NCBI GenBank assembly: GCA_000306725.1
Contig: CP003083.1
Span: forward strand, 2,840,042-2,904,041
Direction of reading: 5' to 3'
Source: Methanolobus psychrophilus R15
Lineage (GTDB): Archaea > Halobacteriota > Methanosarcinia > Methanosarcinales > Methanosarcinaceae
DNA: 64,000 nucleotides
Part shown: positions 9,001 through 48,674 of the stretch, one piece after another
Layout: each line of letters opens with the position of its first letter
Numbering within the stretch: the first letter of the stretch is position 1
Translations under genes and position numbers: made by a program
Notes under the pieces: model-generated
Told to the model about the DNA's origin: nothing
Seen by the model: only the letters and a program-made list of their open reading frames with translations
Database searches by the model: none

Positions 9001-11398
9001 CATCTTTTCTTACCCAGCGGAGTGTGACAGTAGTTCTATCGTTGTCTCTTCCTTTTGATAGACTCTCCAGAAGGTGGCGGTCATCAGGATGCACAAGCTT
9101 AAAGCCAAGATCCAGGTCTTCATAGTGTTCCTCCGGAGTATAGCCTGTGATCTTAGTGGCTGCGGGGCTAACATAAGTGAATCCTCTTTTAGGTGTAAAT
9201 TCATAACGGTATATTATATCATCTGCATTTTCAGATAATCTTCTGAAGCGTTGCTCGCTTTCCACTAACTTCCGATATATATTTTTGCGCTCTGTGATGT
9301 CCTGGAACACGGTTGCAAAGATATCCTTGTCTATCCGATATGCATTGATGCTATAATATCGCTGCAATGGTTCAGAGAACTCCTCAAAGCTAACCGGTAT
9401 CCCGGTTAGTGTGACTTTCCCATATCTCTCTATAAAAGATGCTTTTTCAATACCGGGAAGAACTTCGGTTACCCGCCTTCCCAGGACATCGGCGATTTTC
9501 AATCCGGTCTGCTTCTCAAATGCATCATTTGCTTCAAGGAATACATAGTCCATCGGGTTGCCTTCTTCATCCAGAACTATCTCATGGATAGCCACGCCAC
9601 TAAGAGCATTCTTAAAGAGGCCGCGATACTTTTCTTCACTTTCACACATTGCTTCTTCAGCAGCTATCTGACTCAAGATATTCCATACAGAGTCCATAAG
9701 CAGCGTCAGCTGGAGCGTATCATTTCCTGTATAGTCGGATCCCTTGTTGGCAACTCCGACCACAGCGACTATTTTATCATTTCTGAAAATTGGTATGGTC
9801 ATGAACCTGTGAAGTTCGACATATCCCTGCGGATATCCTTTCTTTAGTGGATCTGGAGCATGAAAGTCATTGACTATTATTGTCTTGCGTTGCCTGACGG
9901 CTTCTCCCCATATGCCTGTATCTTCCAGTTTATATATTGTCTGAGGCTGGACAATCGAACACTCCTTCATCACATCTTTGGACCAGTTATTTAGAGCAAA
10001 CTCTTTTCGGTTCTCATTGTAATGATATATGTAACCGATTTTGCTCTCTGTAAGCTTTATGGCCTCATTAAGTGCAAGATCAAGGAATTCATGAACCGAA
10101 TCGTGCCTAGACTGCAGGATATCCACGAGGCTTTTTAGCCGTTCTTCCCTTAGGCGCAACTCCTCCACAGCCTTTTTGATTTCGGTTATATCTGAATGAG
10201 AGCCCGCCATTCTGTAAGGGACGCCATCTTTATCCCGAAGTGCTTCTCCCCTTGCCAGTATCCAGATGTATGAGCCATTTTTATGCTGAAGCCGGAATTC
10301 AATGTTGTATGTAGGAATCTCTCCTTTGAGATACTTGTTCAGATTCTCCTGTATACGTATACTGTCATCCGGATGGATCCTGTCTTCAAAGGTAGAAAAC
10401 ATGTTTGGCAATTCATTATCCTCGTACCCTATCATCTGTTTCCATTTGGCAGACAGGTAAAGGGTGTTGTTGCGCAGGTCCCAGTCCCATATGCCATCAT
10501 TGGAACCGTTGACTGCCAGCATGAATTGTTCGCGGCTCTTTTCTAACTCCTCAATTACTTGTTTACGCTCAGTAATATCTGTTGAATACTCGATGATACT
10601 ATCAAGGTTTCCCAACTCATCAAAGATCGGATAGGCATTGACCTCCACATGCATAGATTTTCCATTTGAATCGATGTGAAGGTGTTCTACTTTTATAGGT
10701 TCTCCAGTCTGTTTTATCTCATTCATTGGGCATGGATGTCCTGAGCCACAACAAGGTTCACAAAGTCCGTGGCTTGCCTCGTAGCACTTGCTATTGAGGG
10801 CAATATTGTAAGAAGATCTGGCGAAAGAATTTGAAAGCTTAATGGTATAATCGTTGGCATCAATGACCATAAAAGGATGGGTAAGTGCATCCAGCAGAAT
10901 GTTGAGCATATCCTGTTGTTTACACGCATCCAGTTCGGCTTGTTTTGCCTGTGTGATATCTGAGATTACACCAACAATACCTTCCACTCTGCCACTTGTG
11001 CCTGTTATGGTTGCTTTATCGAAGATAACATATCTGATATTTCCATCTTTGTCCTTAACACGCCCTTCATATCGTTGCTTACCAGGCTTTTCAAAGAGCT
11101 CTTGATCCTTCTCAGAATACTGGTCGGTTATTTCCTTTGGCCCCATGTCATACACAGTCTTATTGAGTATCTCTTCTTGTTTTAGTCCAAGCAGTTCCTC
11201 AAAAGCTTTATTGCAACCAGTGTACTTTCCTTGAGCATCTTTACAGAATGCAGGGTTAGGTATGGTTTCCAGAAGGGTGATAAATAACTTCGATTGGCAG
11301 TCTGACAGGTTTTCAATAACTGATTGCTCTATAGACCTTTCATCTTGAGACAATATAGAGGATTGATTCCGATTAGGCAGTTGTGAGATTTTTTTCAT
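6080..11398 (-). CDS. Giant hybrid sensor histidine kinase (multi-PAS, GAF, HisKA, HATPase, REC-REC-Hpt)
   Basis: 1772 residues, no TM segment, so a cytoplasmic sensor. In order: PAS domains at about 40-155, 165-280 (with a Cys-rich '[12 protein letters not shown]' insert), 290-410; GAF about 423-600; four more PAS domains to about 1110; HisKA with '[10 protein letters not shown]' (His near 1138); HATPase with 'DTGIGIP' and '[11 protein letters not shown]'; receiver 1 (Asp near 1429 in '[11 protein letters not shown]'); receiver 2 (Asp near 1570); Hpt (His near 1718 in '[12 protein letters not shown]'). The BarA-like phosphorelay tail is of bacterial style. ATG is preceded by ggaagga. Divergent from a second giant kinase that shares the MKKIS start. 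The signal is unknown; the Cys-rich PAS could hold metal or heme. Confidence 0.92.
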
Positions 11399-11817
11399 TA
11401 GCTTCCTTCCGGTTCATGTGGGGACAAAAATATTAGTTATAGGAATGAAAGGAACATACGCCATAGGTATTCATAGTTTTATTTAAGAGATATATTTATC
11501 CACATATATAATTTGTCAGTAGCGTATATGTTCAATTGTTACCAACATAAGTATGACATTTTTAATATTATATTTAAAACTACCATGAATTTAATGAATT
11601 TACACAAATATAAATAAGAGAAACACAGATGTAATATTAAAGTAAATATCGGAGCGCTCATATTTCACCTCTCAATATATACCCCTGGATGTGAAAATAC
11701 AGTTCGAGCTCAATTACTTCTGTTTACTTATATGAAGAAGTATATAGATACACATAGCCATATATAGTCACATCGTGGGAAATGCTGTTACCACTAGGCA
11801 GAAACCAAAGTGATCAT
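11399..11817. promoter_or_regulatory. Divergent promoter region between two giant kinases
   Basis: About 420 AT-rich bases with no gene. It must carry both promoters. Several TATA-like stretches are present (atatatttat near 11489, tatatagat near 11740, catatatag near 11760). The ATG at 11782 opens the same frame as 11818 but has no proper ribosome binding site. Confidence 0.55.
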
Positions 11818-14800
11818 ATGAAAAAAATATCTGACTTCAGCAGGCAACCAAATGAAAAATTGTCTGGAAAAAAGGATTCAACTTCTACAGAAGACATTTA
11901 TGCTGAAAATAAGTTGGATCTGAGATCACTGTCCATTATTCTGCAAACTATTCCTGCACCAATCTTTTATAAAGATATCATTGGGAGATATCTGGGCTGT
12001 AACCTGGAGTTTGAGAAATTCATCGGAAAGCCCAGTGAGGACATTATTGGTAAAACGATTTATGAAATAGTACCAAGTGACGTTGCTAAAATATATGAAG
12101 CTCGGGACAAAGAATTATATAAGCACCCAGGAACTCAGATATATGAGTGTAAAGTCCAAGGTCCGGATGGCTCAGAGAGGAATGTCGTTTTCCATAAAGC
12201 TTCTTTTAAGGATTCATCCGGGGAAACAGCAGGCCTTATTGGAGTCATAATAGACACAACTGACTTCAAGCAGGCAATTGATGCTTTGAAAGAAAGTGAA
12301 AGAGATGTAAAGGCCATCCTGAATGCATCAACAGAGTCAGTCCTGCTTATTGACACTTCTGGAATTGTCCTTGCTGCCAACGAAGCCGTAGCTCACCGCT
12401 TAGGAACGGATGTCGAAACACTGAAAGGAAAGAATGTTTATGATTTTATTTCTCCTGATGTTGCGCAAAGAAGAAAAAAAGAAGCTGATAAGGTCATAGA
12501 AAAAGGCGAGCCGGTTCACTTTGAAGATGTACGCGGCGGACGGGATATGTTAAACTCAATATATCCGGTATTCAATTCCAAAAAAGAAGTGGAGAGACTG
12601 GCCATCTTTGGTATTGATATCACCGCTGTCACGAGAGCCGAGGACGCCCTGAGAAAGAGTGAAGAACTCTATAGAACAACAATAGAGACCGCTCTTGATG
12701 GGTACGTACATATTGGCATAGATGGCACGATCCTGGGAGTGAATGAAGCATACTGCAAGCTCAGCGGCTATACGCGTGACGAACTGCTTAGTATGCAGAT
12801 ATCCAACCTTGATGCACTTGAGAGCCCTGAACAGACAGCAGCCCGAATCCAGAAAATCATCAGAAGCGGAAGTGGCCTTTTTGAAATAAAGCATCGCACA
12901 AAAGACGGTAGTATCCTGGATGTAGAGGTCAGTGCGACTTACTCGGAAAGCGCAGGTCCGGGCTTCTTCTGTTTTTTCAGAGACATCACACAGTACAAGC
13001 GGGCTGAAAAGCGTGAACTACACCTCAAGAACGTACTTCTGGCAATAAGGAATGTGAACCAGTTAATAGTTCGTGAGAATGACCCGCACCGCCTCATCGA
13101 GAAGGCATGTGCGAATCTTACAGAAACGCTTGGTTATTTTGATGCATGGATAGCATTGCTGGATAAGAAAGGTTCCGTTGCTGCCACTGCTGCCTCATAC
13201 CATGACGGCGGATTTACTGAAATGCTCACGCAACTGGAAAGCGGGAAGTTCCCAGAATGCATGATCTCGGCCCTGGAGCGAGAAGAGATTATTATTATCA
13301 ACAACCCAAGCCGTAATTGCCAGGATTGTCCTCTGTCAGGTAACTATCCGAAGAGATCCGGGCTGGCATACAGGCTGCAATTTGAAGGTAATATCTATGG
13401 AGTAATGGCAGTTTCGATCCCTTATTACTTTGCTCATGATAAAGAAGAACAGGAGCTATTTACTGAGATTGCTGATGACCTTGGTTTTGCCATTCACAAG
13501 ATCAATACGGCAAGGGCACTGATAGAGAGCGAACAGAATTACCGTACATTAGCTGATAGCGGTCAGGCCTTGATATGGACTTCTGGAACGGACAAACTCT
13601 GCAACTACTTCAACCTGCCATGGCTACAATTCACCGGACGCAAACTGGAACAGGAGTTAGGCAACGGATGGCTTGAGGGTGTTCACCCTGATGATAGGGA
13701 TTACTGTGGGAGGATCTATACCGATGCCTTTGACAAACACGAGCAGTTCACGATGGAATATCGCTTACTTCGGCATGACGGCGAATACAGATGGATTCTT
13801 GATGACGGTTCCCCTCGTTACGACAGCACGGGGAAATTCATTGGATATATAGGTCACTGCCTGGATATCACCGAACGTAAATTGGCAGAGGATGAACGTG
13901 AGGTCACCATCAAGCTGTTAAGCCTTCTAAACGCCTCCAATGATATGCAGGGACTCATCTCTTCGGTAACACAACTACTCCAGGACTGGTCAGGATGCGA
14001 AGCTGTGGGTGTCAGGCTAAAGGAGGGAGAAGACTATCCATATTACTATACAGAAGGGTTCCCTGCTGTTTTTGTAGAGGCGGAGAATTACTTATGCTCC
14101 CGCGACCTCGACAACCAGATCCTCCGGGATGAAGATGGTAACCCGGTTCTGGAATGCATGTGCGGTAACATTATTTGTGGACACTTCAGCCCTCAGCTGC
14201 CATTCTTTACCGGGCACGGCAGTTTCTGGACTAACTCCACCTCGGAACTTCTGGCCAGCACAAGTGAATCTGACAGGCAGGCACGTACACGCAACCGTTG
14301 CAACGGCGAAGGCTATGAGTCAGTAGCCCTTATACCGCTCCGTGCTCATGGAGTCACTTTCGGACTGATGCAGTTGAACGATGCCCGGAAAGGCCTATTC
14401 ACAGAGGAAAATATTGCTTTGTTTGAGCGTCTTGGCGACAGCATTGCCATTGCACTTGCACAGCGGCAGGCACAGAAAGAGCTTAAAAAGAGCGAAGAAA
14501 GGACACAAAGCATCTTAAGAGCCGCACCTGCTGGAATTGGTGTCGTGGTCGACCGTATGTTCACAGAGGTGAACCTGCAAGTGTGTGAGATGACTGGATA
14601 CAGCCGCAATGAACTTACTGGCTCCCTTTCACGCATGCTATATACCACACAGGAAGACTTTGATTATGTTGGCACGGAAAAGTATCGGCAGATAGCTGGA
14701 AATGGTACGGGAATTGTAGAGACAAGATGGATGAGAAAAGATGGCACTATAATTGACGTTCTCTTATCCTCAACACCTATCGATACTTCCGATCTGTCAA

Positions 14801-17505
14801 AAGGTGTGACGTTTACTGCGCTAGACATCACTGAGAGAAAAGAAGCAGAAAAGAAACTAGCAGAAGAAGCTATATGCCACCGTATCCTAATCGAACAGTC
14901 CAGTGATGGGATCGTTGTCCTGGATGATAACGGTAAGGTTTACGAGGCTAACCAGCGCTATGCTGATATGCTCGGCTATTCCCCGGAAGAAATTCTCCAG
15001 TTGCATGTTTGGGACTGGGATACTCAATGGACACGCGAAGAACTGCTGGATATTATCAGAAAAACTGAAGAATCGGGCGATCATTTTGAGACACGCCAAC
15101 GACGCAAGGACGGTACTTTGCTCGATGTTGAGATCAGCACTAACGGGGCGATATGCAACGGAGAAAAACTGGTCTTTTGTGTATGCAGGGATATTTCTGA
15201 GCGAAAGCGCATGGAAGAAGAGCTTCGCAAGAGCGAAGAGAAGTACCGTGAACTGGTACAGAACGCTAACAGCATCATCCTGAAATGGGACCGCAGCGGA
15301 GAAGTTCTGTTTCTCAACGAGTTCGGGCAGCAGTTTTTCGGATACAGCGAAAAGGAGATCATAGGCAAGACTGTCATGGGTACGATCGTGCCGGAACAGG
15401 CGACGAGCGGACGCAACCTTTCGTTACTAATGGACGAGGTCTTCGAGCACCCGCAAGAGCACGCGAGGAACATCAACGAGAACATATGCAAGGATGGCAG
15501 GCGCGTTTGGATCTCATGGTCGAACAATCCCATATATGACTCAGAGGGTCTAGTGATTGAGATGTTTAGTGTAGGAACAGACATCACTGCGCAAAAACTG
15601 GCCGAAGAAGCACTCCGGCAGACAACTGATCGCCTGATGCTGGCGACACGTGCCGGAGGTGTTGGCATATGGGACTACGATATTGTTAATAATTACCTCT
15701 TCTGGGACGAGCAGATGTTCCGTCTCTATGGTATCAAGCCTGATCAGTTTGGAGGTGCATATGAAGCATGGCGGGGGGGAGTTCATCCAGAAGACGTATC
15801 AAGAGCCGATACTGAAACTCAGATGGCGCTTCGAGGTGAAAATGATTTCAATACCGAGTTCCGGGTTATCTGGCCCAACGGAAATGTCCGCTACATCCGT
15901 GCACTTTCCATCGTCCAGCGTAATGATTCCGGCCAGCCTCTACGTATGATAGGCACGAACTGGGACGTTACTGATCAAAAGATGGCAGAAGATGATTTAA
16001 AACAGCGTGAGAAGCTTCTCAATAAGATATTTGAAATACTCCCGATCGGGTTATGGTTTGCTGACAATAAAGGCAGACTATTGAAAGGAAATCCTGCCGG
16101 AGTTAAAATATGGGGTGCTGAGCCACATGTAGCAATTGAGGAATATGGCGTATTCAAAGCCCGCCGGCTTCCATCCGGAAAAGAAATCGCACCTGATGAC
16201 TGGGCGCTTGCTCACACTATAAATGAAGTAGCAACTGTTGAAAATGAATTGCTTGAGATAGATGCTTTTGACGGTACGAAAAAGACGATACTGAACTATA
16301 CGGCTCCTGTGGTGGATGATGAGGGGAATCTGATGGGTGCGATTATAGTCAACAATGATATAACAGACCTCAAAAATACAGAGAAAGCCCTAAGAGAGAA
16401 CGAAGAGAGGCTATCACTATCAATGGAAGCTTCAGAGTATGGTTTTTGGGATGTCGATCTTGACACCGGAAAAATGTATCTGAGCCCGCAAATATATGCC
16501 ATGAACGGATACGAAGACGGAGAATTATCTGAAAGTATAGAATCTGTAGTGAACCTGGCACACCCGGATGACATAGAAACTGTTATGTCTACGGTCAGTG
16601 AATCTATTGTTGATGTAAAACCATTCAATGTGGACTTCAGAGCCAAACATAAATCTGGAGAATGGATATGGATATCTGCCAAAGGTAAACCTGTTGAAAT
16701 TGATGAGAATGGGAAACCACACCGCCTTATAGGGACGCAGGTCAATATCACTGACAGGGTCATGGCAGAAGAATCTCTTCTATATACCAAGATTGCTGCT
16801 GAAGAAGCTAATCGCATGAAGGATGAATTATTAAACAATATATCTCATGAATTCAGGACGCCGCTGAGTGCAGTACTAGGTTTTTCGGATCTGCTGCTCA
16901 GTGATGACGGTGAAAGCCTTAGCGCTTCACATAGGGAATATGTGGGGCACATTCATCAGAGTGGGAAAAATCTTTTGAGTATGGTCGAAAGGATACTTGA
17001 TTACTCAAATGCCAAATACGGCAGTATGAGCTCTCTTGAGCTGCAGTCTATTAATGTGAGTGAACTTGTCCTGGAAACAGTACATATCCTCTCAAAGAAA
17101 GCACTAAAAAAGAACATTAAAATCAATACCATCCCAGCTCCTGATCTCAAAACTATTGTTGCAGATCGTCAGAAACTTCAGAAGATCCTGTACAACCTTC
17201 TGGAAAATGCTATCAAGTTCACAGACCCCAATGGTTTTGTAAAAATAGAAGTGAAAAGCAGAAATGATTCAGTCCAGTTTTTGGTACAGGATACTGGGAT
17301 AGGTATTGAACGGGAGAAGATTGAGACTTTGTTTGAACCATTTGTACAGATAGATGGATCGATATCCAGAAGATATGGAGGTACAGGGCTTGGGCTTGCC
17401 TTGGTTAAAAAGCTGATTGAAATGCACAATGGGCGCATCTGGATTGAGAGTGAGGTCGGAAGAGGTAGTGCATTTATTTTTGAACTACCCCTTAACAGGG
17501 AATAA
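11818..17505 (+). CDS. Giant PAS/GAF sensor histidine kinase
   Basis: About 1895 residues, soluble. It starts MKKIS like its divergent neighbour, which with the weak gtgat before it favours 11818 over 11782. It has three PAS domains (to about residue 395), a GAF domain (about 405-565), a PAS, a second GAF with Cys motif 'CMCGNIICGHF', then six or so PAS/PAC repeats, each ending in a 'DITERK'-like linker. HisKA has 'NNISHEFRTPLSAVLGF' (His near 1678), then HATPase with 'NLLENAIKF', 'DTGIGIE' and '[12 protein letters not shown]'. There is no receiver or Hpt, so phosphate would pass to a separate regulator, possibly receivers of the neighbour (inference). Confidence 0.92.
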   Translation: MKKISDFSRQPNEKLSGKKDSTSTEDIYAENKLDLRSLSIILQTIPAPIFYKDIIGRYLGCNLEFEKFIGKPSEDIIGKTIYEIVPSDVAKIYEARDKELYKHPGTQIYECKVQGPDGSERNVVFHKASFKDSSGETAGLIGVIIDTTDFKQAIDALKESERDVKAILNASTESVLLIDTSGIVLAANEAVAHRLGTDVETLKGKNVYDFISPDVAQRRKKEADKVIEKGEPVHFEDVRGGRDMLNSIYPVFNSKKEVERLAIFGIDITAVTRAEDALRKSEELYRTTIETALDGYVHIGIDGTILGVNEAYCKLSGYTRDELLSMQISNLDALESPEQTAARIQKIIRSGSGLFEIKHRTKDGSILDVEVSATYSESAGPGFFCFFRDITQYKRAEKRELHLKNVLLAIRNVNQLIVRENDPHRLIEKACANLTETLGYFDAWIALLDKKGSVAATAASYHDGGFTEMLTQLESGKFPECMISALEREEIIIINNPSRNCQDCPLSGNYPKRSGLAYRLQFEGNIYGVMAVSIPYYFAHDKEEQELFTEIADDLGFAIHKINTARALIESEQNYRTLADSGQALIWTSGTDKLCNYFNLPWLQFTGRKLEQELGNGWLEGVHPDDRDYCGRIYTDAFDKHEQFTMEYRLLRHDGEYRWILDDGSPRYDSTGKFIGYIGHCLDITERKLAEDEREVTIKLLSLLNASNDMQGLISSVTQLLQDWSGCEAVGVRLKEGEDYPYYYTEGFPAVFVEAENYLCSRDLDNQILRDEDGNPVLECMCGNIICGHFSPQLPFFTGHGSFWTNSTSELLASTSESDRQARTRNRCNGEGYESVALIPLRAHGVTFGLMQLNDARKGLFTEENIALFERLGDSIAIALAQRQAQKELKKSEERTQSILRAAPAGIGVVVDRMFTEVNLQVCEMTGYSRNELTGSLSRMLYTTQEDFDYVGTEKYRQIAGNGTGIVETRWMRKDGTIIDVLLSSTPIDTSDLSKGVTFTALDITERKEAEKKLAEEAICHRILIEQSSDGIVVLDDNGKVYEANQRYADMLGYSPEEILQLHVWDWDTQWTREELLDIIRKTEESGDHFETRQRRKDGTLLDVEISTNGAICNGEKLVFCVCRDISERKRMEEELRKSEEKYRELVQNANSIILKWDRSGEVLFLNEFGQQFFGYSEKEIIGKTVMGTIVPEQATSGRNLSLLMDEVFEHPQEHARNINENICKDGRRVWISWSNNPIYDSEGLVIEMFSVGTDITAQKLAEEALRQTTDRLMLATRAGGVGIWDYDIVNNYLFWDEQMFRLYGIKPDQFGGAYEAWRGGVHPEDVSRADTETQMALRGENDFNTEFRVIWPNGNVRYIRALSIVQRNDSGQPLRMIGTNWDVTDQKMAEDDLKQREKLLNKIFEILPIGLWFADNKGRLLKGNPAGVKIWGAEPHVAIEEYGVFKARRLPSGKEIAPDDWALAHTINEVATVENELLEIDAFDGTKKTILNYTAPVVDDEGNLMGAIIVNNDITDLKNTEKALRENEERLSLSMEASEYGFWDVDLDTGKMYLSPQIYAMNGYEDGELSESIESVVNLAHPDDIETVMSTVSESIVDVKPFNVDFRAKHKSGEWIWISAKGKPVEIDENGKPHRLIGTQVNITDRVMAEESLLYTKIAAEEANRMKDELLNNISHEFRTPLSAVLGFSDLLLSDDGESLSASHREYVGHIHQSGKNLLSMVERILDYSNAKYGSMSSLELQSINVSELVLETVHILSKKALKKNIKINTIPAPDLKTIVADRQKLQKILYNLLENAIKFTDPNGFVKIEVKSRNDSVQFLVQDTGIGIEREKIETLFEPFVQIDGSISRRYGGTGLGLALVKKLIEMHNGRIWIESEVGRGSAFIFELPLNRE

Positions 17506-37739: not shown

Positions 37740-38614
37740 CCCAACTTTGACAGTCAAAAGTAATAATAGTGTTCTTAGTCTTGATGTATTCGACAAAAAA
37801 TGCAACAAAAACTAAGAACATATGACATTATTCCTAACGAGAATATATGCTTTCCTGTCGGAACTATTGTGGCAGTAAACCAACTTTATGATATCCTTGA
37901 CTTTCCTACTGTTTTCGGTAAACACAAAAAGAATGGTATTGATATCAACAACCTGCTGAAGGCTCTTGTAAGCTACAAGCTTACAGATAATTTCAGCATA
38001 AGTAAAGCTCATGACTGGATAAACCGTGATGAGGTACTTGATATCTTCGATCTCGAAGATTTCAGTGAAAGGACACTTTACAGGGTTCTTGAAATCCTGG
38101 GAAATAATCGTGAAACGATTATTTCCGACATTCAGGATAGACTGTTTGACAGGTATGACTTCGAACATACCAACATCAATATGGATTGGACGAGTATCGT
38201 TCTGTATGGGGATAAATCTCCTCTCGGAAAGTATGGATATAGCAGAGATTACAGGCCTGACAAAAAACAGATAACTTTGGGTATAACTGAACTTGCAGAT
38301 CCCATAAACGTGTCTATAGGCATCACCGTAGAACAGGGAAATATGCATGATCAGAAACACTTCAGGAAAACGTATCAACAAGTAAACAAAAGGATCAAGC
38401 AAGGATCACTTGTTGTTTTCGATAAAGGAGCTCACAGCATAGAGAACACTGCCATGATAAGGGCAGATGATATGCAGTATCTGACTGCAAGGAAGCTCAA
38501 TAAGAGTGACGATAAGATAATAGCTAATTTCGGGGACTATTCTCTTGAAACCATTGACTCTGATGATGGCATGTATGGAATGAAGATAGTAAAACCAAGT
38601 AGTGTTAACTATTT

Positions 38615-39355
38615 GGCATTGTTAATTAAGTATAGTTAGTTCATTATTTCTATACTTCATCAAAAGAAGAACAGAGTATTTTAGCATTTCAAGACTCTTA
38701 GTATAACATTTTGTTTTTCTTCGTAATCTTGCCAGAAAGTGCCTGAATATGCTGTTATATCCTTCCACTGTATAGGTTTCTGCTTTTGATCGTGTATGAA
38801 CCTCATCTGGAAGAAACTCTGCATATGCTTTCCAGTTATCGGTCATCACTTTCCCTATCTCTTTCTTCTCTAGTTTCTCCCAGAGCTTTTGTCCTGTTTT
38901 GGTTCCCCTGCTACCAAAAGAGCAGTTGATGAATTTTTTCCCAGCTCTATCAACAGCAATCCAGATCCAACAATATTTTTTTTGTTTCCAATATAAGTAT
39001 GCATTTCGTCTAATTCAACGATCTCTATCTCGTTTTCGCTTTTTAGATCCTCTAATTCCTGTCCGAATGTCTTTATCCAATTTTGAACCGAAACATGACT
39101 TACTCCTAAAAAACGTCCTATTGAACGAAATCCCAATCCTTCAAGGTATAGCTGTAAAGCTTGTCTTTTAACGGAGGGAGGAGAGGCAGTAGACTTAAGT
39201 TCTACTGTATAATTGTATCTACATTCATGGCATTGATAGCGTTGGAGTCCATTGATTTTACCGTTCTTTTTGTTATTAAAGCTATTGCACTTGGGACAAT
39301 TCACGCTTTATGTGTAGGCTATCATAATATATAACTATATATACTTACCAATGCC
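38615..39355 (-). mobile_element. IS1-family element
   Basis: 741 bp with inverted ends ggcattgttaatt / ggcattggtaagt and an 8-bp target duplication aactattt (38607-38614, 39356-39363), typical of IS1. It lies inside the IS1634-type transposase. It encodes an InsA-like and an InsB-like frame on the minus strand. Confidence 0.92.
38622..39304 (-). CDS. IS1-family transposase (InsA-InsB) joined across an A8 run
   Basis: The first frame (39304 down to 38870) gives a zinc-finger/HTH: 'MNCPKCNSFNNKKNG', 'RYQCHECRYNY', 'SIGRFLGVSHVSVQNWI' and 'IVELDEMHTYIG' with the first Asp. After AAAAAAAA (plus positions 38976-38983) the real sequence continues in the -1 frame: 'YCWIWIAVDRAGKKFINCSF', 'KVMTDNWKAYAEFLPDE' and 'VEGYNSIFRHFLARLRRKTK' to the stop at 38622. 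A -1 shift on the A8 run, as IS1 elements are known to use on A-rich slippery sites, or a lost A would join them. I cannot tell which. Confidence 0.75.
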
Positions 39356-40192
39356 AACTATTTTTATTTTTCTGAAAAACTCCAGATAGAGCAACTTGAA
39401 TCAAGAACAAGGAAAATAATGAGGCAGATAGAGGAAGCAAAAGAGATACAGGAATCTATTGATAAGAATAAGAAGCTGCCTAAAAAGTTCAGGATCAATA
39501 ATGCCCTTGTTGATGTTGTTTATTCATTGCAGACAAAGCTGGTGAATCTTGATGAAGAAGAAGCTATCAAACTTCTCGAAGAACATCTGATCACAGGCAG
39601 AGAGGGATTTTTCTGCCTGAGATCAAGCAAGAATTTGACACTGAAACAAGCTCTTCAAACATACAGGAAAAAGGACTCAATAGAAAAGATCATCCATTCC
39701 CTGAAGAATGAGATTGAGATCAAACCGCTAAGAGTGTGGTCGGATGCTAGTGTTTATGGAGCTATTATTATCGGGTTCATTGCACAATTGTTCATATCGC
39801 TGTTGCGATATGAGTTCAATGAACTCAAACATAAGTCCACAAAATTCATTAAAAATAGCTTATTGAATTTGACAGTTACCGTCGATTTCATGAAAGAAGG
39901 GTCGAAAAAGTACATTTATGCCAACTTTGATGCTATAAATAACTGATCTTAAGGCAAAAAAGGGCAAAATCGTAGAATTTTGCATGAAATTGTTTAAACT
40001 GTCAAATAGGTTTTCCTGACAAAAAAAAGAAAATTCTAGGTCCGAAGAGAAGACATTCTCTTCATCAAGGAGTGAAAACTGTCAAACTTGGGTTAATTCT
40101 TATGGCATTTTCAACCTGTTTTAAATACTCATGCTTTCAGTAAGTCTTTTTTGTATCTCCAGTAGTCACTTTCACTTAACTCGGCTTATTTA

Positions 40193-41289
40193 TAGTCCCT
40201 AACTCAACAAATCACACTTTTTATTTGTGCATTAAATGTTTCTATCCATTTTTTTGCAAACGATAATGAGCTCTCTACCCTCATAAATTCCATTTTGATA
40301 ATATCCCTCAAATGTTCTTTTGATCTGACAAATTTGACTGACACTTCTCTTTTGATTGTTTTCCAGACAAATTCTACTGGATTTAGATCAGGTGAATAAG
40401 GTGGTAGGAACACAAGTGTTATTTTTAAATCTCTCGCTTTACTTATCGTTTTCTTTGCATGATGCGATCTTGCATTATCGAGAACAAGAATTATTCTTTT
40501 CCCTGGGTTTTGCTCTACAATTTTTTCCAGGAATTCACACACATCTTCTGTTTTTGAGCTTTTCATAAAATCAATGATACTGTTCCCGTTGATCGAATAA
40601 AACGCAAATGCATTTGCTTTAACGTAATCCGTATTTTTTATTATCAACGGTTTTTTAAATGACCATAATCTTTGCGTGTTTGCTTTTGTTTGTGGTGAAG
40701 ATTCATCCAGAAAACCTATGATATACTGCTCATCTTGACCAATATGTTTTGGAATTGCTTCGGTTAGTTTTTTTTAAGATCTCTTCAGCGTTTTTAGGTC
40801 TTCTGTAGTCAAGGGGATATGGCTTTGAGTGATACATGTTAAAACTGTGAAGTATAACTCCTACTTGTTTCTCTGAATATTCTACGCCATATTTTTCCTT
40901 TATTAACTTCCAGACTTCTCTTGTAGTCCAGTAATCCTTATTTTCCAACAAAGCTCTTAATTCCTTTTTTTGTTCATCAGTAAGTTTGGATTTCCTACCT
41001 CCGCCAAAATTTGGCATTAAGGCGGTATAGCCGCCTTTATTCCAACTTTCTTGCCAGCAATATCCTGTTTTCTTAGTCACTCCTACTTTAGTAGCAGCTT
41101 CTTCTACAGAATCCCCTAAATATCTAAATTTAACAAAATAGAGCCTTTTCAACACTCTTGAATTGTTCTCGTGTGTGATCAAATCGTTAATCTCGTCGAG
41201 AATTACCTTTCGGTCAATCAGAATTTGTTCTTTCCCCGCCATAAGATAAGATAAACATTAATACGTGTAGTAAGTTGCGTTGAACACTA
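40193..41289 (-). mobile_element. IS630-family element, copy 2
   Basis: 1097 bp, almost identical to copy 1 (a few substitutions plus one extra T), flanked by TA. It sits 100 bp right of the IS1634-type copy and about 180 bp left of the tubulin-like operon, so three elements have landed within 3.6 kb. The near identity to copy 1 indicates recent transposition. Confidence 0.9.
40204..41242 (-). pseudogene. IS630-family transposase with a one-base insertion
   Basis: Identical in layout to the gene at 26731, but the T run at 40768-40775 has eight T where copy 1 has seven. The frame breaks after 'NAEEILKK' (about residue 155), before the catalytic core; 'IIKNTDYVKANAF...' continues in another frame to the stop at 40204. 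Confidence 0.9.
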
Positions 41290-41344: not shown

Positions 41345-41352
41345 TTATATAG
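41345..41352 (+). promoter_or_regulatory. TATA-like element of the tubulin-like operon
   Basis: ttatatag lies between the IS630 end and the first gene. Transcription would begin near 41375, giving a leader of roughly 95 nt to the ATG at 41470. The operon thus seems to keep its own promoter despite the IS next to it. Confidence 0.4.
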
Positions 41353-41469
41353 TTAGATGGGGAAATAGTAGAAACTTGAATACTAATCTATAATCGAAAA
41401 TAAGCTGTATTAATGCCACGTCCGACAAAGCAAAACCAGCATTTGATAACTTCTATAAGGGCTGAAATT

Positions 41470-42201
41470 ATGAAAACAGGAAATGTATCATTTGTTAAAT
41501 CGATAATCTACTTATTTATTCTTCTAGCACTAATTCCAACAGTTTCGGCTATAGCTGTAGACATAGATGGCGATTTACCCGCTGAGGCAAAAGAAGGGGA
41601 TATTGTTGAATTCAACCTGACCATCTCAGGTATACCAAAAGCAGCCGGGTTAATTTCCTTTGAGACAGACCTGGGAGCTTATGGTAATTCTCCGCTTTAT
41701 TATTTCCCGGATCATAATGTTACAACCAATTCGAGTAGCTATGTTCTTGATCTGAATGATACCGATGGTACAGTGGTTATACAGGTAAACGGCAGAGTAC
41801 CTGTGATCAAGGAAGTTGTACAGGTAGACAAATTAACTCTTGTAAAGCTGGATTCAAAACGAACAGGTTATGCCTACTACCGCGTTAAGCTCATGGATGA
41901 TAAAAGGAATCCATTGAAAGACGGTGACACAAAAACATTTTCAATATCCGTCCCCGAAATCGAGTCTTTTCAAAGTAAGCTGGTTACGATCGAAGATCCA
42001 TTTTTCAGAACCTACCTCACAAGCATGTTCGATAAAGGTTTGGTTTATGAGTCCAATGAACTTGCCGATCATTTGAATTCAAGGGACGAAGGTTCTGTAG
42101 TTCCACTAATTTGGGCAGCAATAGGGTTGGTACTTGCATTAGTAGTAGGCGTTATAATTGGCATCAGGTTGAGCAATTCAGAGGAAGATGATGAACTATG
42201 A
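41470..42201 (+). CDS. Secreted/anchored membrane protein, first gene of the tubulin-like operon
   Basis: About 243 residues. An N-terminal signal segment ('FVKSIIYLFILLALIPTVSA'), an extracytoplasmic part of ~180 residues with beta character ('DLPAEAKEGDIVEFNLTISG', 'TDGTVVIQVNGRVPVIKEVV') and N-x-S/T sites, then a C-terminal TM 'PLIWAAIGLVLALVVGVIIG' and the acidic tail 'RLSNSEEDDEL' inside. ATG 41470 is preferred over 41413 because the signal segment starts there. Its stop overlaps the next start (ATGA). Family unknown. The acidic tail could contact the tubulin-like protein (inference). Confidence 0.7.
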   Translation: MKTGNVSFVKSIIYLFILLALIPTVSAIAVDIDGDLPAEAKEGDIVEFNLTISGIPKAAGLISFETDLGAYGNSPLYYFPDHNVTTNSSSYVLDLNDTDGTVVIQVNGRVPVIKEVVQVDKLTLVKLDSKRTGYAYYRVKLMDDKRNPLKDGDTKTFSISVPEIESFQSKLVTIEDPFFRTYLTSMFDKGLVYESNELADHLNSRDEGSVVPLIWAAIGLVLALVVGVIIGIRLSNSEEDDEL

Positions 42202-45200
42202 GTTTCCGAAAGATCCCGGCTCCATTGCAATTGCCTACAGACCTCACCATTGTTGGTGTGGGAGGCTGTGGGAAAAGGCTTGCAATGGAAATATGCAGCA
42301 ACGACTGGTTCTTAGAACATTATACTGTTGACGGAAGGCGTCTTAAAGTCTACACAATGGATGCAGATGCAAATGAAAAGATGGGAGATGAGGAACGTAA
42401 TGGTCAGCTTTCTGCAAAAATTGTTTCCAGCGTCGCCCAGGGAAGTATAGAGAGCAAGTTCTATTATTTGCCTTCCCTTGCGAACATAAGTCAGGTTTCG
42501 GATCTGGCAAGCATGGAAATTGCTGAAAAGGTCAGGAATAAAAGGTCGGAACCAAAGGTGACAAACTGGTGGTTGAACGACACTACCGAAGGCGGTGTAT
42601 CCTTTGAAGAACTGGCCAAAATAGATCCTTTTGTCATGGATGATTTTGGTGGTGGAGTCCATAGAAGGAGGGCTATCTCCAAAGCTATATTCTACAAAGT
42701 CATCACTGAAGGTGAAGCCAGTGGTTTTCCTACCTTCTCAAGCAGAGGCAGTGTAGCTATTGTTGTAGGACTTGGCGGAGGAACAGGGTCGGGCATGTTC
42801 ATCGATCTTGCAAGATATATCCGTTCTTTTAAAGGTGATTCTACTCAGCTATGTCTTTTTGTTGTGCTGCCGACCACAAAAGAAGGAGAAAAAGAACAGC
42901 TGAATGCTGCGATCGCTTTGACCGAGCTTGAATATCTTAATATGAACGAGAGGCTTTTCAATAACATTATAGTGACATCTCTGGGACCCACCGGATATAA
43001 GAAAGGTGAAGAAGCCCGGGAAGAGGTACATGAGTTCGACTCAATGTTCCCCAATGTATTTATTAACTTTTTCCATGTCGAAAGAGGAGACATCAATATA
43101 AGTGACGTGAAGGGTTCTTATTCTTCTTTTATCTTTGCGGATTCCCATGTGATAGAATATCCTATAGAAGACCTGAAGGGACTAAAGAACCAATACGAAG
43201 AGATCATTAATTCTCTTGAGATGATAACTCTTTCCAGGAAAGACCTCAACCAGCATGTTTCATCTTTCCTGGAGAACTATTCTTCTTTTAATGATATGCC
43301 CCCTACCAGGGAGAATTTCGAATACATTAAGAAGGAATACAAGAATGTTGAAAATGTTTTGAAACATGAGATTGGCAGATTGCTTAACTATAAGAGCGTG
43401 GATACGATCGAGTATTTCATTGCAAACCAGATCCCTCCTGAAATGCAGATCGACAAAATAAAGACCTTCGATGAGATGATCGACTATCTCTCCAAGGTTA
43501 AAGCAGGATCACTAAATGTAAAGGAAAGTGAGCTGATCGATGAGAACGATAAGAAATTGGCAAGACTGATCCCTGAAACCCTGCATGTCCTGGAAGATAC
43601 TGCCATTCTGTTCAAGAGAGTATCCGGGATCAATGAAGAGTCTGCAAGGTCAACGCTTATTGATATGCTTAAAGGGAACCAGAATATGGTTTCGACTATA
43701 AGCAATATGAACTCAAAGGCAAAGAAACTGAAAGATGAGATCCGCAATGCTGAGAACGATATCCTGACCCTGGAAGATGAACATAAGCAGACAGAGCTGC
43801 TCAGGAGCCAGATATTGAAGAAAGCAGAGCAAAAATGGTATGACAACGAGAAAGACATTGAACAGCATCTCGTGATAAACAGGAAGATCCAGTTCCTTGA
43901 TGAGAAAGAAAAGGACTTGAAATTAAAGCTGGATCAGTTCATTGCCCGGCTCAAAAGTGATGAGATCAAGGCGCGGGATAAAAGCACCTGGTTACGACTG
44001 GCAAATGTTCCCGCAATGCAGCAGGAAGTCAAAGACCTTTCAGATGAGATTGGCGCTAGCACTGATGGGCTGATAAGCTTAATTGAGTCAATAGCTCTGT
44101 ATTATTTCTATGATTCGGAAAGGACAAAACAGGAAAAGGGCGGTCTGGTAAGTTTAATAAAAGGGGATAAAAAGAAGAAGGTCCGGAAATATGAAGCACT
44201 GAAGAAGGAAAAAGAGGATTACATAAAATCAAATGTAAAACACTGGAATATCCAGATCAACAGTCCTTTTGAGTTTTACATCCCCGATGATTTTTTGAAC
44301 AAGGGTCTCGCTAAAAAATCAGGCATACTTAAGGATCAGATACTCGCATCTCTGGTATCCGATGTTGGCAGAGATTCAGTGGATCATGATAACCTGAATG
44401 CTATTTTTGATCTAAGCGATAAAAATGAGCTGAAGAACGCTTTAAAAGAGCATGTTCAAAAAATGTACCTCCAAAAGGATGGTTACTTCACCAGGTCCAA
44501 GACAATCTCTGATGAGATCCAAAGTCTTAAGGGTACTATCAGTGAGAAAAAATCCCTGTCCGATATGATGTCAAGTGCTGATGAACTTCATGAAAGGACC
44601 TTTGACTCCAGAAGGAATCTTAACCGACAATATGAGACATTCTACCAGTTCCTGTCTTCGATTAACGAAAAAGCAAAATCTCAGAACAAGACCGATAAGG
44701 GCTTGTATAAGACCAGAATAGGGGAGATCAATCCAAAGATCTTATCCCTTATAGGGGAAACGTCCGATCTCACCAACCTTGACAACGATGAGAATGGAAT
44801 AAAGGAACTCAATAACTTACTACACCAGGTTAAGTCAACTTATCCGTCGTTGCTTGAAAACTACAAGCTTGGAATCCATAATCAAATGATCCCTATAAGT
44901 GCTACTGAAAGGTGGAACTTTGGTAAGGTTGGCTTAGTGATAGGTTCAAGGTCCTCTTATATTTCCTCTTTAGTAGCGAACAGTACGATATCTTCGGATA
45001 TCAATGATATTTTGTCCCTTAAGAGCTCTCAGGATGCCCATGTGATAACCCATAACCATGCTAAACCATGGGAAATAACATTGACTTTCTTTGCAGCCAC
45101 AAGTTTCCTTGACAATATCTCCCCCCTGACCTCAGGCGGAGGATACTGGAAAATATATGAACGAAATTGTGATAATATCCTGCATCACGTTCTGAAACTG

Positions 45201-45344
45201 CAGAATGGCCAGTATATCGTCAGGAAAAAATTGCTAGATGTAAAATCAGCAGGCGAAATAGCTAACTCCGAAAGGATTTCCCAGAATGTTGTCCCTTTTA
45301 TTGAGAATCTCTATGAGATCAAAAAGCTCCGTGAGGCTCTTTAA
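42198..45344 (+). CDS. Tubulin/FtsZ-like protein with a long coiled-coil region
   Basis: 1048 residues. 'LTIVGVGGCGKRLAMEI' (residues 16-32) resembles the first loop of FtsZ. 'VVGLGGGTGSGMFIDLARYI' carries the tubulin signature GGGTGSG at 193-199, which contacts GTP phosphates. Residues to about 340 form the GTPase-like domain; a large charged region follows, with likely coiled coil at about 500-600 ('KLKDEIRNAENDILTLEDEH') and 770-830. Far longer than FtsZ, CetZ or TubZ. It resembles the broad 'tubulin-like' group (Pfam Tubulin_2) as I recall it. I did not find a clear T7 catalytic loop, so polymerisation-linked hydrolysis is uncertain. Confidence 0.8.
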   Translation: MSFRKIPAPLQLPTDLTIVGVGGCGKRLAMEICSNDWFLEHYTVDGRRLKVYTMDADANEKMGDEERNGQLSAKIVSSVAQGSIESKFYYLPSLANISQVSDLASMEIAEKVRNKRSEPKVTNWWLNDTTEGGVSFEELAKIDPFVMDDFGGGVHRRRAISKAIFYKVITEGEASGFPTFSSRGSVAIVVGLGGGTGSGMFIDLARYIRSFKGDSTQLCLFVVLPTTKEGEKEQLNAAIALTELEYLNMNERLFNNIIVTSLGPTGYKKGEEAREEVHEFDSMFPNVFINFFHVERGDINISDVKGSYSSFIFADSHVIEYPIEDLKGLKNQYEEIINSLEMITLSRKDLNQHVSSFLENYSSFNDMPPTRENFEYIKKEYKNVENVLKHEIGRLLNYKSVDTIEYFIANQIPPEMQIDKIKTFDEMIDYLSKVKAGSLNVKESELIDENDKKLARLIPETLHVLEDTAILFKRVSGINEESARSTLIDMLKGNQNMVSTISNMNSKAKKLKDEIRNAENDILTLEDEHKQTELLRSQILKKAEQKWYDNEKDIEQHLVINRKIQFLDEKEKDLKLKLDQFIARLKSDEIKARDKSTWLRLANVPAMQQEVKDLSDEIGASTDGLISLIESIALYYFYDSERTKQEKGGLVSLIKGDKKKKVRKYEALKKEKEDYIKSNVKHWNIQINSPFEFYIPDDFLNKGLAKKSGILKDQILASLVSDVGRDSVDHDNLNAIFDLSDKNELKNALKEHVQKMYLQKDGYFTRSKTISDEIQSLKGTISEKKSLSDMMSSADELHERTFDSRRNLNRQYETFYQFLSSINEKAKSQNKTDKGLYKTRIGEINPKILSLIGETSDLTNLDNDENGIKELNNLLHQVKSTYPSLLENYKLGIHNQMIPISATERWNFGKVGLVIGSRSSYISSLVANSTISSDINDILSLKSSQDAHVITHNHAKPWEITLTFFAATSFLDNISPLTSGGGYWKIYERNCDNILHHVLKLQNGQYIVRKKLLDVKSAGEIANSERISQNVVPFIENLYEIKKLREAL

Positions 45345-45358
45345 TTGGGGTGACAGTT

Positions 45359-46810
45359 ATGAGGATAAGGGGAAAACGAAGCTTATACAGCCCATTAATT
45401 TTTTTATTGTGCTGCTTCTTATCGGTCAGTTTTTTTGTTGTAACCGGCCAGTATATCGTTTCATCTATCACATGGTATCTGGCTGCAATATTAAGCTTCT
45501 TTCTGGCCCTGTTCCTCTCAAGCGGTCTTGGGATGCTGTTTGAAGAAAGGTCAAAGCTCGGTGGAATTCTGTTACTGACTGTTTTCTTACCGTATTTATA
45601 TGTATTCGGGTATCAGGGCAATGTTCTAAGACTTGATGGTATGGTTCCGGGTCTGCTGTTAGGAGTGGGTTTCATTTTGCACGCTTTTGTCAATAATCGA
45701 TTTGACATCGTTGCTGAAAAAACACGGTCCTTATTTAAGGTATTCTTTGTCGGAATGCTGCTTTACTTGTTCTACGTCTTTGTGAGACTGATCGATGCAG
45801 AAAGCGCAAGAGGGGCAGCCCGGTATACTCTGACAGGTTCAAATGATCTGTTCATGTTCATATTAAGTTTTTTCATTCTTTTGATCTTATTTGCGGTCCT
45901 GATGAGACATTTGCATGGGATCAAAGCTTCTGATGTCTTTGTATATGGTCCTTCAAAATCAGGGAAAACGTTGCTGTTGCTCGCATTATACAATCAGTTT
46001 GTCCATTATTATCATGGGCAAAGAAGCGAAACCATAATTTCCTCATCAGGGGATGAAGACTATTACAGGATTGAGAATATGCTGGCTGAGCTGAGAAAAG
46101 GCAAACAGCCAAAAAGCAATCAAAAAACGGATATGGCACTGTATACTCTCAAGGGCAAGAAATTCATAAAACCCATAGAGTTCTCTTTTGTTGACTATGG
46201 CGGGGAATTCACTGAAAATCTAAATCAGGAGGAATATCTCAAAGCTATCCTTGAGATGAGTAACCAGGTTCCCGGAATCAATAAAACCACATTAGATGAA
46301 AAGATCAGCAACCATGAGTTCATAAAAGAGCTGAAAGATAATCATTCTGATGAACTTGTGTATATATTGGACCAGCTGGTACTGGCACATGTCTACAAAA
46401 AGCTCCAGCGCGCCGGGAAAGTTATTTTTCTCGTTGATGGAGAACATATCCTTTCATATCATGAAGATGGTGCAAGTTATCTGACTAGATTATTTGGTCA
46501 GTATTCAAGGATAATGGAGCAGTTTGGAGACGGTAAATCCTATGCTATTGTGGTCACAAAAGCAGATAAAATAAAGAATATCTCTGATGTCATGGATAAT
46601 TCTAAAGAGGCAAACCTCATTGAAAAGGAGATATATAATATGCTGACCGAGATCGATACTTTCAAAGAGATACAGAACCGGGCATCCAAGGAACCTATAC
46701 ATTTCTATGCGGTCAGTGCAAATGCCCTTCGCAGTGTTGGCAACCAGGAAGAGACGATGAAAAACATTTACCCATGGAGAGTTGAGCAAATTGCAAAGTT
46801 TGGTTTCTGA
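45359..46810 (+). CDS. Six-TM membrane protein with a P-loop GTPase domain
   Basis: About 483 residues. Six hydrophobic segments in the first 185 residues ('PLIFLLCCFLSVSFFVV' to 'FMFILSFFILLILFAVL'). Then a cytoplasmic P-loop domain: 'VYGPSKSGKTLLLLALYNQF' (Walker A GPSKSGKT near 197), 'FVDYGGEF' (switch II-like), 'KVIFLVDGEHIL', 'IVVTKADKI' (G4-like TKAD) and 'YAVSANAL' (G5-like). This is a TRAFAC-type GTPase layout. ATG 45359 is chosen because ggggtga precedes it by 5 nt; it follows the tubulin-like gene by 14 nt. It could gate or anchor the tubulin-like protein at the membrane. Confidence 0.8.
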   Translation: MRIRGKRSLYSPLIFLLCCFLSVSFFVVTGQYIVSSITWYLAAILSFFLALFLSSGLGMLFEERSKLGGILLLTVFLPYLYVFGYQGNVLRLDGMVPGLLLGVGFILHAFVNNRFDIVAEKTRSLFKVFFVGMLLYLFYVFVRLIDAESARGAARYTLTGSNDLFMFILSFFILLILFAVLMRHLHGIKASDVFVYGPSKSGKTLLLLALYNQFVHYYHGQRSETIISSSGDEDYYRIENMLAELRKGKQPKSNQKTDMALYTLKGKKFIKPIEFSFVDYGGEFTENLNQEEYLKAILEMSNQVPGINKTTLDEKISNHEFIKELKDNHSDELVYILDQLVLAHVYKKLQRAGKVIFLVDGEHILSYHEDGASYLTRLFGQYSRIMEQFGDGKSYAIVVTKADKIKNISDVMDNSKEANLIEKEIYNMLTEIDTFKEIQNRASKEPIHFYAVSANALRSVGNQEETMKNIYPWRVEQIAKFGF

Positions 46811-48674
46811 TTTTTTCATCTATAACTCTACTGGCCGTCTCATCAGCGGAGGCCAGGATACAAATGAATTCAGCAGCCTCGCTAAGCAAATAGATGCTAA
46901 AAGGAATGCCTTGTACTTCGAACTGATGAAAAACGGCACGGTTTTGATCTTAGGGTGCAGTGTCAGAGTAGAACAGATTGGCGGAAGAGAAGAAAGGATC
47001 GTCTGTATAGGAGTATGCTCCGGTTTCCACGGCCATGAGAATGATGTGATAACAGGATTTTACGAAAAGGTCATAGCAGAAATAAAGAGCATCCCAAAGT
47101 TTGATTACAGGATAGTTGGCCTGTGGAATGAGAACGATCTTCATGACTTTGGGACATTGCGGGATATCGATCTAAATGAAGATGTAACAGAATTTATCTA
47201 TGGGAAGCTGGTTGCAAACGAGCATGTTTCTATCAAGTCCAAAGATACTCTGGCTGCAGTTTCGGTAATAAACAATATTTTCAATAAATTGCAGGGTTTT
47301 TCGGGGTATGACCTTAAATTCACCGCATCTCAATATCCTTACGAAACAGATATGTCTGTCTGCCCCATAGAACCAAATCCGGACCTTGAACTGGACATGT
47401 CTGGTCTGAGCTGGAAAGCTGCTCCTGCATACAATGACTATTATCGGATAATCTCGAAGGTCTTTTGGGAGTATCTGGCAGATGACGAGAATCAACAAAC
47501 ATCCAAAACCCGGGATGCTTTATCATCAGACATTAAGAAACTGGCCTTCCACCTTTACAAAAAAGAGATGCTGGGCCTTTTCTCTACTTCTCAGTCAATG
47601 AACAAATTGTTTAATCTTTACAAACATGATAAAGATGTGCTGATGGAAGTATTCAAAGAGAAGCCTTATCAGATAGAGTCAATGACGATAGAGGATGAAA
47701 TCGCGGTAGCAAACATAATTATACTGTGTAGTCTTCAAAGCTCATCAAATCTCTCCTTTTTAGACCATAATTCTCATGAAAACGCGTCAATAAAGAGCTT
47801 GTTTTCGAAAATAAGGAATCAAAAGATCAAGAGAAATCTGGAGATCAAACTACTTGAGAATGGTATTTTCTTGAGTTATGCTATAAAGGATGCTGTCTCC
47901 AGAATATATAACGAGGATACGGTATTGTTGAATAGCTTGTGCAGGATCCAGTTCAAACAAAATGATCGCAGGAAAGAAAAATTTAAACAATACGTCACTG
48001 CTGCTTTATCGTCACTTCAAAATGAGCAATTGATCGAGGTCCTGAGATTTACCGCAAACTCACTTGAAACCACTCCTGCTGAAGGAGGCAGGATCTTTCA
48101 TGATTCCATTAGAACATTGCTGTACACCCACGCACATGATTTCGCACATAAATTGAGCCTAAATGAGGCTAAACTTCTGGATTCCTATTTTGGATCTAGT
48201 TATTCCTCTCAAAAGAAAAGCAGAAATAACAAGAGCAGAAAAAAGGTATTGACCATTGGGTCATTCATTCTCATATTTTGCCTGTTCGTCGCAATAATGA
48301 CATATTTCCTGATGCCTGGTGTATTCCCTGGTGAGAATTCTTCAACCAAAGATGCTCGAATCAGTGACTTTACAGACAAACTTGGCTCATTCATTCCATT
48401 TTTAGCAGGCAAAGAAGTTTCCGGGAACGAGTCTGTTAATTTTACTGCTCACAATACTTCAAACCCATTTGAGTTCCAGTTCACAGATCATACCCTGAAT
48501 GCAACTGAATGGGAATGGGATGTTGATGGAGACGGAAACACAGATTCCCGTGACAGTAATTTTACTTACATTTATAATGAGACCGGGATATATAATGCGA
48601 GTTTGAATGTTTTAGTTGATAACAACATATCTTTAAGTCGCACTTTAATAATCAATGTTCCGGAAGAATCTTAA
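46782..48674 (+). CDS. Single-TM protein with an extracellular PKD domain, last gene of the operon
   Basis: About 630 residues. The N-terminal 480 residues are cytoplasmic and of unknown fold ('DFFIYNSTGRLISGGQDTNE', 'GTVLILGCSVRVEQIGG'), similar in style to GTPase-associated regulatory subunits but not assignable. A basic stretch, one TM ('VLTIGSFILIFCLFVAIMTY', about 487-508) and a C-terminal PKD domain follow ('NATEWEWDVDGDGNTDS', 'YNETGIYNASLNV'). Start TTG at 46782 with ggag 3 nt before it, or TTG 46791; the gene overlaps the GTPase gene by 29 nt, so translation is coupled. Confidence 0.75.
   Translation: MSKLQSLVSDFFIYNSTGRLISGGQDTNEFSSLAKQIDAKRNALYFELMKNGTVLILGCSVRVEQIGGREERIVCIGVCSGFHGHENDVITGFYEKVIAEIKSIPKFDYRIVGLWNENDLHDFGTLRDIDLNEDVTEFIYGKLVANEHVSIKSKDTLAAVSVINNIFNKLQGFSGYDLKFTASQYPYETDMSVCPIEPNPDLELDMSGLSWKAAPAYNDYYRIISKVFWEYLADDENQQTSKTRDALSSDIKKLAFHLYKKEMLGLFSTSQSMNKLFNLYKHDKDVLMEVFKEKPYQIESMTIEDEIAVANIIILCSLQSSSNLSFLDHNSHENASIKSLFSKIRNQKIKRNLEIKLLENGIFLSYAIKDAVSRIYNEDTVLLNSLCRIQFKQNDRRKEKFKQYVTAALSSLQNEQLIEVLRFTANSLETTPAEGGRIFHDSIRTLLYTHAHDFAHKLSLNEAKLLDSYFGSSYSSQKKSRNNKSRKKVLTIGSFILIFCLFVAIMTYFLMPGVFPGENSSTKDARISDFTDKLGSFIPFLAGKEVSGNESVNFTAHNTSNPFEFQFTDHTLNATEWEWDVDGDGNTDSRDSNFTYIYNETGIYNASLNVLVDNNISLSRTLIINVPEES

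Follow-up and report, generated by a model that had tools for sequence, protein, structure and literature searches.

What a tubulin-type protein, a membrane GTPase, and two membrane-anchored proteins do together, when they are encoded in one run of archaeal genes, is the question raised by this locus of Methanolobus psychrophilus R15. The genome consisted of one contig of 3.07 Mb. The window, which is the whole stretch of 64,000 nucleotides that was analysed, contained a set of four ORFs (P1 to P4) on the forward strand, all of which were intact and overlapping or closely spaced according to the window ORF calls. The operon and its candidate promoter were distributed as follows.

41345–41353, forward strand: candidate operon promoter, a TATA-like sequence TTATATAG matching the consensus, in the gap that separates P1 from the left insertion element
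41470–42201, forward strand: P1, starting from ATG 41470; homologs begin at the same position
42198–45344, forward strand: P2, an FtsZl1/Tubulin_2 protein of 1048 aa
45359–46810, forward strand: P3; the ORF is open from GTG 45350, and ATG 45359 agrees with homologs
46782–48674, forward strand: P4, with a cytosolic N-domain, a second alpha/beta domain, a helical region, one transmembrane (TM) segment, and an extracellular PKD tail

The junction of P1 and P2 was a 4-nt ATGA overlap, P3 followed P2 after 14 nt when counted from ATG 45359, and P3 and P4 overlapped by 29 nt; the stop/start overlaps and the 14-nt spacing reported in the first-pass annotation could thus be confirmed from the ORF coordinates. 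The hydrophobic-segment layout of P1 also bore out its earlier description, with an N-terminal signal-type segment, an extracellular domain, one TM segment (42109–42165), and an acidic cytosolic tail. In Methanosarcinaceae, in Methanogenium, and in relatives at the order level, P1 likewise stood at the head of the operon. Its assignment to the vWA proteins or to another known family was dropped, as no convincing match was obtained.

Pfam analysis of P2 revealed a Tubulin_2 match of 51.1 bits (cut-off 27), and a T1-like loop, GVGGCGKRL, started at residue 20. The parts of the protein were located as listed below.

42240–43157, forward strand: predicted tubulin-type GTP-binding domain, residues 15–320 (AlphaFold2 secondary structure)
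42774–42794, forward strand: T4 loop GGGTGSG, residues 193–199, with little or no variation among 21 homologs
43689–43955, forward strand: predicted long coiled-coil helix, residues 498–586 (AlphaFold2)
44928–45326, forward strand: predicted C-terminal alpha/beta domain, residues 911–1043 (AlphaFold2 strand/helix order, conservation)

The AlphaFold2 model of P2, which was built from 12 sequences, had a mean pLDDT of 79.4. Foldseek comparison of this model against the PDB gave CetZ2 as the top match (probability 1.00, E 1e-5), and the further matches were tubulins, TubZ, and OdinTubulin, with a probability of 1.00 for those listed. The GTP-binding loops were kept in every archaeal group compared. 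On its predicted structure, P2 is a member of the tubulin superfamily with the tubulin fold. The first-pass annotation had pointed to GGGTGSG and an FtsZ-like first loop in a 1048-residue coiled-coil protein and had left the decision to structure prediction; Pfam, AlphaFold2, and Foldseek agreed with it, and the tubulin fold was found. Between the GTPase and C-terminal domains, AlphaFold2 placed a helical and coiled-coil region. The C-terminal part showed the predicted order strand-helix-strand-strand-helix-strand, which resembles that of the FtsZ/tubulin C-terminal domain, and W958, D972–N973, and R1009 were invariant among homologs. Residues 911–1043 may correspond to the C-terminal domain of tubulin, with the coiled coil as a giant insertion that has displaced it. 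Identification of this region as a tubulin C-domain by sequence was dropped, since its profile search against the PDB matched no solved tubulin.

Other tubulin-type genes were observed at some of the loci compared. Three tubulin-superfamily genes stood abreast, together with an exported TM protein, at L044 (6364–8997, 10551–11825, and 11813–13027) and L045; their products were 877, 424, and 404 aa long with the motifs GGGTGSG and GGGTGNG. Several congeners (L009–L012) encoded a separate tubulin-like protein of 370–400 aa with a SASGGTGSS loop. These proteins gave weak Tubulin_2 matches and were dropped as FtsZl1 candidates, being other tubulin-like proteins.

P3 contained six hydrophobic segments inside residues 10–193, followed by a G domain with three motifs.

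45947–45970, forward strand: G1/P-loop GPSKSGKT; G200, P201, S204, G205, and K206 invariant in 24 homologs
46193–46207, forward strand: Walker B/G3 DYGGE; D282 and G285 invariant in 24 homologs
46556–46567, forward strand: G4 TKAD; T403, K404, and D406 invariant in 24 homologs

The six TM helices and the GPSKSGKT/TKAD motifs named earlier were both recovered, with the key residues invariant among these homologs. The match of P3 to the Pfam family DO-GTPase2 (PF19993) was 28.2 bits, narrowly over the gathering score of 27, and the family was matched at E ≤ 0.1 by 23 of the 24 P3 homologs, a marginal but consistent result. P3 therefore scores as a membrane GTPase of the DO-GTPase2 family in profile comparison. 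The Walker B glutamate was present in the window protein (DYGGE) and in Methanosarcinaceae homologs (D-Y-G/S-G-E); in more distant archaeal homologs, the motif read DYPGE or lacked the glutamate (DYPG or DFPG). A P3-type membrane GTPase also occurred in a genome that lacks FtsZl1 (G517, contig 2:1519297–1520763). At the haloarchaeal loci L078 (10341–13887) and L100 (5270–6964 and 11370–12746), two six-TM GTPase-type proteins were encoded near FtsZl1; one of the pair apparently contains no P-loop, which echoes the double-GTPase theme.

P4 consisted of a cytosolic body, a single TM segment, and an outside tail, in which the following parts could be mapped.

46806–47096, forward strand: conserved N-domain, residues 9–105 (AlphaFold2; hhalign across archaeal groups)
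48237–48311, forward strand: TM helix, residues 486–510 (hydrophobicity, AlphaFold2)
48453–48632, forward strand: PKD domain, residues 558–617 (PKD_4, 29.3 bits; cut-off 27)

This agrees with the cytoplasmic body, one TM segment, and outside PKD domain described earlier, but the PKD domain was found in only one of 22 P4 homologs, that of the window species, and was dropped as a defining part of the system. Most Methanosarcinaceae P4 proteins had Asn/Ser/Thr-rich tails, the ectodomain of Methanohalobium was of the PGF-pre-PGF type, and that of Haloplanus carried a PQQ-propeller annotation. The N-domain was the conserved part of the protein and the ectodomain the variable one. For residues 9–105, AlphaFold2 predicted the order beta-beta-alpha-beta-beta-beta-alpha with a block pLDDT of approximately 66–93, which is the topology of longin/roadblock domains. 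For this domain, Foldseek returned 7kzm_I, a 103-residue chain of an outer dynein arm entry (probability 0.99, with a weak E of 0.16), and also listed TagF (probability 0.97). Sequence-profile comparisons detected no similarity between the N-domain and Robl_LC7, and its identification as a canonical Robl_LC7 domain by sequence was dropped. A longin/roadblock-like N-domain is thus a weak lead, suggested by the predicted fold. The candidacy of P4 as a GAP1 protein was also dropped; Pfam gave no GAP1-N2 match in the window species' own genome, and hhalign of P4 against two archaeal GAP1 proteins gave a Prob of 0.1, a comparison of low power with its two templates. A search for GAP1 on plasmids returned none. 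Apparently complete archaeal GAP1-N2/DO-GTPase/HSP70/GrpE/FNIII systems were seen at two other loci, L076 (genome G025) and L090 (genome G444), with no tubulin gene at the locus; G444 holds both kinds, the GAP1/HSP70 system and an FtsZl1 operon, at separate loci.

All four genes occurred in the same order at approximately 25 loci in the class Methanosarcinia. The order-level clade kept P1-P2-P3 together with a shorter P4 equivalent, and the Halobacteria kept the P2-P3-P4 trio. The survey of the phylum covered 393 genomes, in which 44 of the 47 P3 matches had a P2 match at most 500 bp upstream on the same strand, an adjacency far beyond chance. The neighbourhood comparison proposed in the first-pass annotation hence found the genes conserved together, with P3 directly downstream of P2 in these 44 cases. 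The P4 N-domains of the archaeal groups are homologous by profile comparison; hhalign gave a Prob of 98.8 for the order-level clade against the haloarchaeal group and 94.8 for Methanosarcinaceae against those two groups combined, with control values of 1.3 for P1 and 0.3 for P3. In the order-level clade, a further exported protein was encoded downstream; it had a hydrophobic segment at its C-terminus and, on visual inspection, a plastocyanin-like domain (L019, 411–1043; L070, 13920–14537; L071, 9992–10618; L072, 7864–8490).

In two families of the phylum, most of the genomes sampled carried the operon. Within the genus it was patchy and missing from many congeners, and it is therefore not essential in the genus. 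Its location differed between the window species and congeners, and mch adjoined it in the window species only. Comparison of the window species with a congener revealed synonymous sites near saturation and dN values of 0.14–0.48, and a closer congener pair gave dN/dS ratios of approximately 0.04–0.16 across the four genes, P4 being the fastest-evolving. The low dN/dS and the near-saturated synonymous sites indicate that the genes are maintained by purifying selection. To the left of the operon (37800–41242) lay the transposase genes, or pieces of them, from several insertion elements, and the outer ORF of a two-ORF DDE_3/HTH transposase pair started 228 bp from the P1 start. The accessory island proposed earlier is partly supported, by the patchy occurrence and the changed location in congeners, but all four genes are intact and maintained by purifying selection. 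Elsewhere in the window, two very large ORFs of 1772 and 1907 aa (6080–11398 and 11782–17505) were observed, and the large proteins of the window include PAS, GAF, HAMP, and histidine-kinase domains.

FtsZl1 was defined by Makarova and Koonin (2010; PMC2875224) by an N-terminal FtsZ domain, a coiled coil, and a C-terminal domain; the archaeal founder, Huta_2051, is 1051 aa long, and the alignment includes Methanosarcina acetivorans. According to the same study, FtsZl1 operons carry P-loop GTPases, which are membrane-associated in archaea and have a TxKD-type motif, and a majority encode a vWA-domain protein, which is frequent rather than required. A role in membrane remodelling was predicted from gene context, and the function was questioned by reviewers (PMC2875224). 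P2 fits this family. Since ordinary FtsZ typically co-occurs with FtsZl1 (PMC2875224), P2 is probably not a division protein. DO-GTPases and GAP1 were defined, and conflict systems predicted, by Kaur et al. (2020; PMC7159879), according to whom the tubulin-containing conflict systems occur only in firmicutes and actinobacteria. In a survey from 2023, the Tubulin_2 group is still set apart as a divergent one (PMC9871819). As FtsZl1 and DO-GTPase predictions have been published, and literature searches limited to open-licence papers found no laboratory study of the system, the operon therefore belongs to an already predicted, experimentally uncharacterised kind. The first-pass view that no characterised system holds this set is right as far as experiments are concerned; a similar set had been predicted (PMC2875224) and the GTPase family named (PMC7159879).

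Starting from the gene set, the P2 and P3 folds or motifs, the topology, the linkage, and the selection described above, we infer a physical complex with P4–P3 contact, polymerisation, and a role at the membrane. With middling confidence, the archaeal FtsZl1/DO-GTPase membrane system can be read as a GTPase-gated, membrane-tethered tubulin-like scaffold that spans the envelope. P3 would act as the membrane-embedded GTP switch. P4 would stand beside P3, its cytosolic N-domain probably docking on the G domain as a regulator or effector and its ectodomain turned towards the S-layer or the cell exterior. P2 would bind GTP, and P3 and P4 would control its tethering or assembly at the cytosolic side of the membrane. 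On the outside, P1 would be the partner, able to link to the components within through its short acidic tail in the cytosol. Together, P1–P4 would build a GTP-regulated envelope-spanning cytoskeletal patch that shapes or marks the membrane, rather than a division ring. The GTP-driven envelope-spanning machine of the earlier note remains the best-supported reading of these four genes conserved together, but a similar set had already been predicted; its suggestion of DNA or particle uptake is supported by nothing found here. In a more specific version, which is tentative and somewhat doubtful, P4 would be a TM receptor whose longin/roadblock-like domain regulates P3, which in turn recruits or releases the P2 polymer, unlike the bacterial GAP1-based version.

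The main rival is defence, in which P3 would be a threshold switch triggered via P4 or P1, and P2 polymers would halt viral propagation or bring about cell death. We regard this as unlikely. It draws on Kaur et al. 2020 (PMC7159879), whose predicted conflict systems include DO-GTPases and tubulins, and it would suit an operon that is patchy and relocated within the genus, a P4 that evolves fastest and has a variable ectodomain, and plasmid-borne haloarchaeal copies, which have vWA, Hsp70, or GrpE genes in their vicinity. However, the four operon proteins gave no match to PADLOC-DB models, whereupon a known anti-phage defence system was dropped, and the earlier suggestion of defence keeps an indirect basis in the prediction of Kaur et al. 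The PADLOC matches among flanking ORFs of the window coincided with proteins of kinase, PAS, and transposase type; no defence neighbours or island were evident among the window ORFs. The presence of the system in most genomes sampled from two families, the failure to detect GAP1 for P4, and the loci read, at which no variable effector gene was consistently linked, also argue against defence.

A signalling or transport role likewise appears unlikely. P4 and P1 would then bind or sense surface ligands, and P3/P2 would form a GTP-dependent scaffold for a transporter or sensor array rather than shape the membrane. Such a role was proposed by a reviewer in PMC2875224 and is consistent with ectodomains that vary (PKD, PGF-pre-PGF, PQQ propeller) on a constant cytosolic core, but no transporter gene was consistently linked in the loci read. 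That the operon is a degenerate or selfish remnant without a cellular role, in an accessory island rich in insertion elements, is scarcely credible and largely refuted, for although insertion elements abut its left end and many congeners lack it, the four ORFs are all intact, dN is low with synonymous sites near saturation, and gene order is preserved across families.

The envelope-spanning scaffold reading concerns a protein family that has been ranked among the most divergent in the tubulin/FtsZ superfamily; since 2010, the papers found here have dealt with it through predictions only. The archaeal operon represents a compact minimal version of four genes, with no extra chaperone or vWA genes. 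The new detail is an archaeal version without a detectable GAP1, in whose place stands P4 with its conserved N-domain, TM segment, and variable ectodomain. If P4 is a longin-like regulator, a GTPase-switch logic would be tied to a tubulin-type protein in non-Asgard archaea. The operon is present in the genetically tractable Methanosarcina, so the function of these proteins is testable there; a control search gave a Tubulin_2 match in M. acetivorans.

P2 shares with FtsZl1 the N-terminal FtsZ domain, the coiled coil, and the C-terminal domain, as well as a comparable length (1048 versus 1051 aa) and the GGGTG(S/T)G GTPase domain. The C-terminus of FtsZl1 is mostly helical, as is P2 after residues 498–586, but the last 130 residues of P2 are predicted by AlphaFold2 to be alpha/beta. 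An operonic membrane P-loop GTPase with a TxKD-type motif (P3) and other linked membrane proteins are also shared, and P1 and P4 may correspond to the lineage-associated families A1/A2 of PMC2875224. In contrast, vWA and protein kinase genes were absent from the window operon; Pfam revealed no vWA domain in P1 or the window P4, and one P4 homolog had a sub-threshold VWA match (E 0.02).

The DO-GTPase/GAP1-N2 systems of Kaur et al. share with this operon the DO-GTPase2 match (P3) and a linked tubulin with a coiled-coil or helical C-terminus, and a downstream protein with a TM segment and ectodomain (P4) occupies the position where GAP1 stands. The window operon differs in its single GTPase, where those systems have a pair, and in the lack of a detectable GAP1 and of FNIII, vWA, and Hsp70 genes.

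In SR-beta/SRX and MglA/MglB, a small GTPase is paired with a longin or roadblock partner. The present operon likewise combines a membrane-associated GTPase with a partner that carries a predicted beta-beta-alpha-beta-beta-beta-alpha domain; it differs in that P4 has no sequence similarity to Robl_LC7, and the P3–P4 contact is one that we infer. With CetZ, FtsZ, and tubulin, P2 shares the GTP-binding core and the T4 loop, CetZ2 being its top Foldseek match, whereas the large coiled-coil region of P2 distinguishes it from them.
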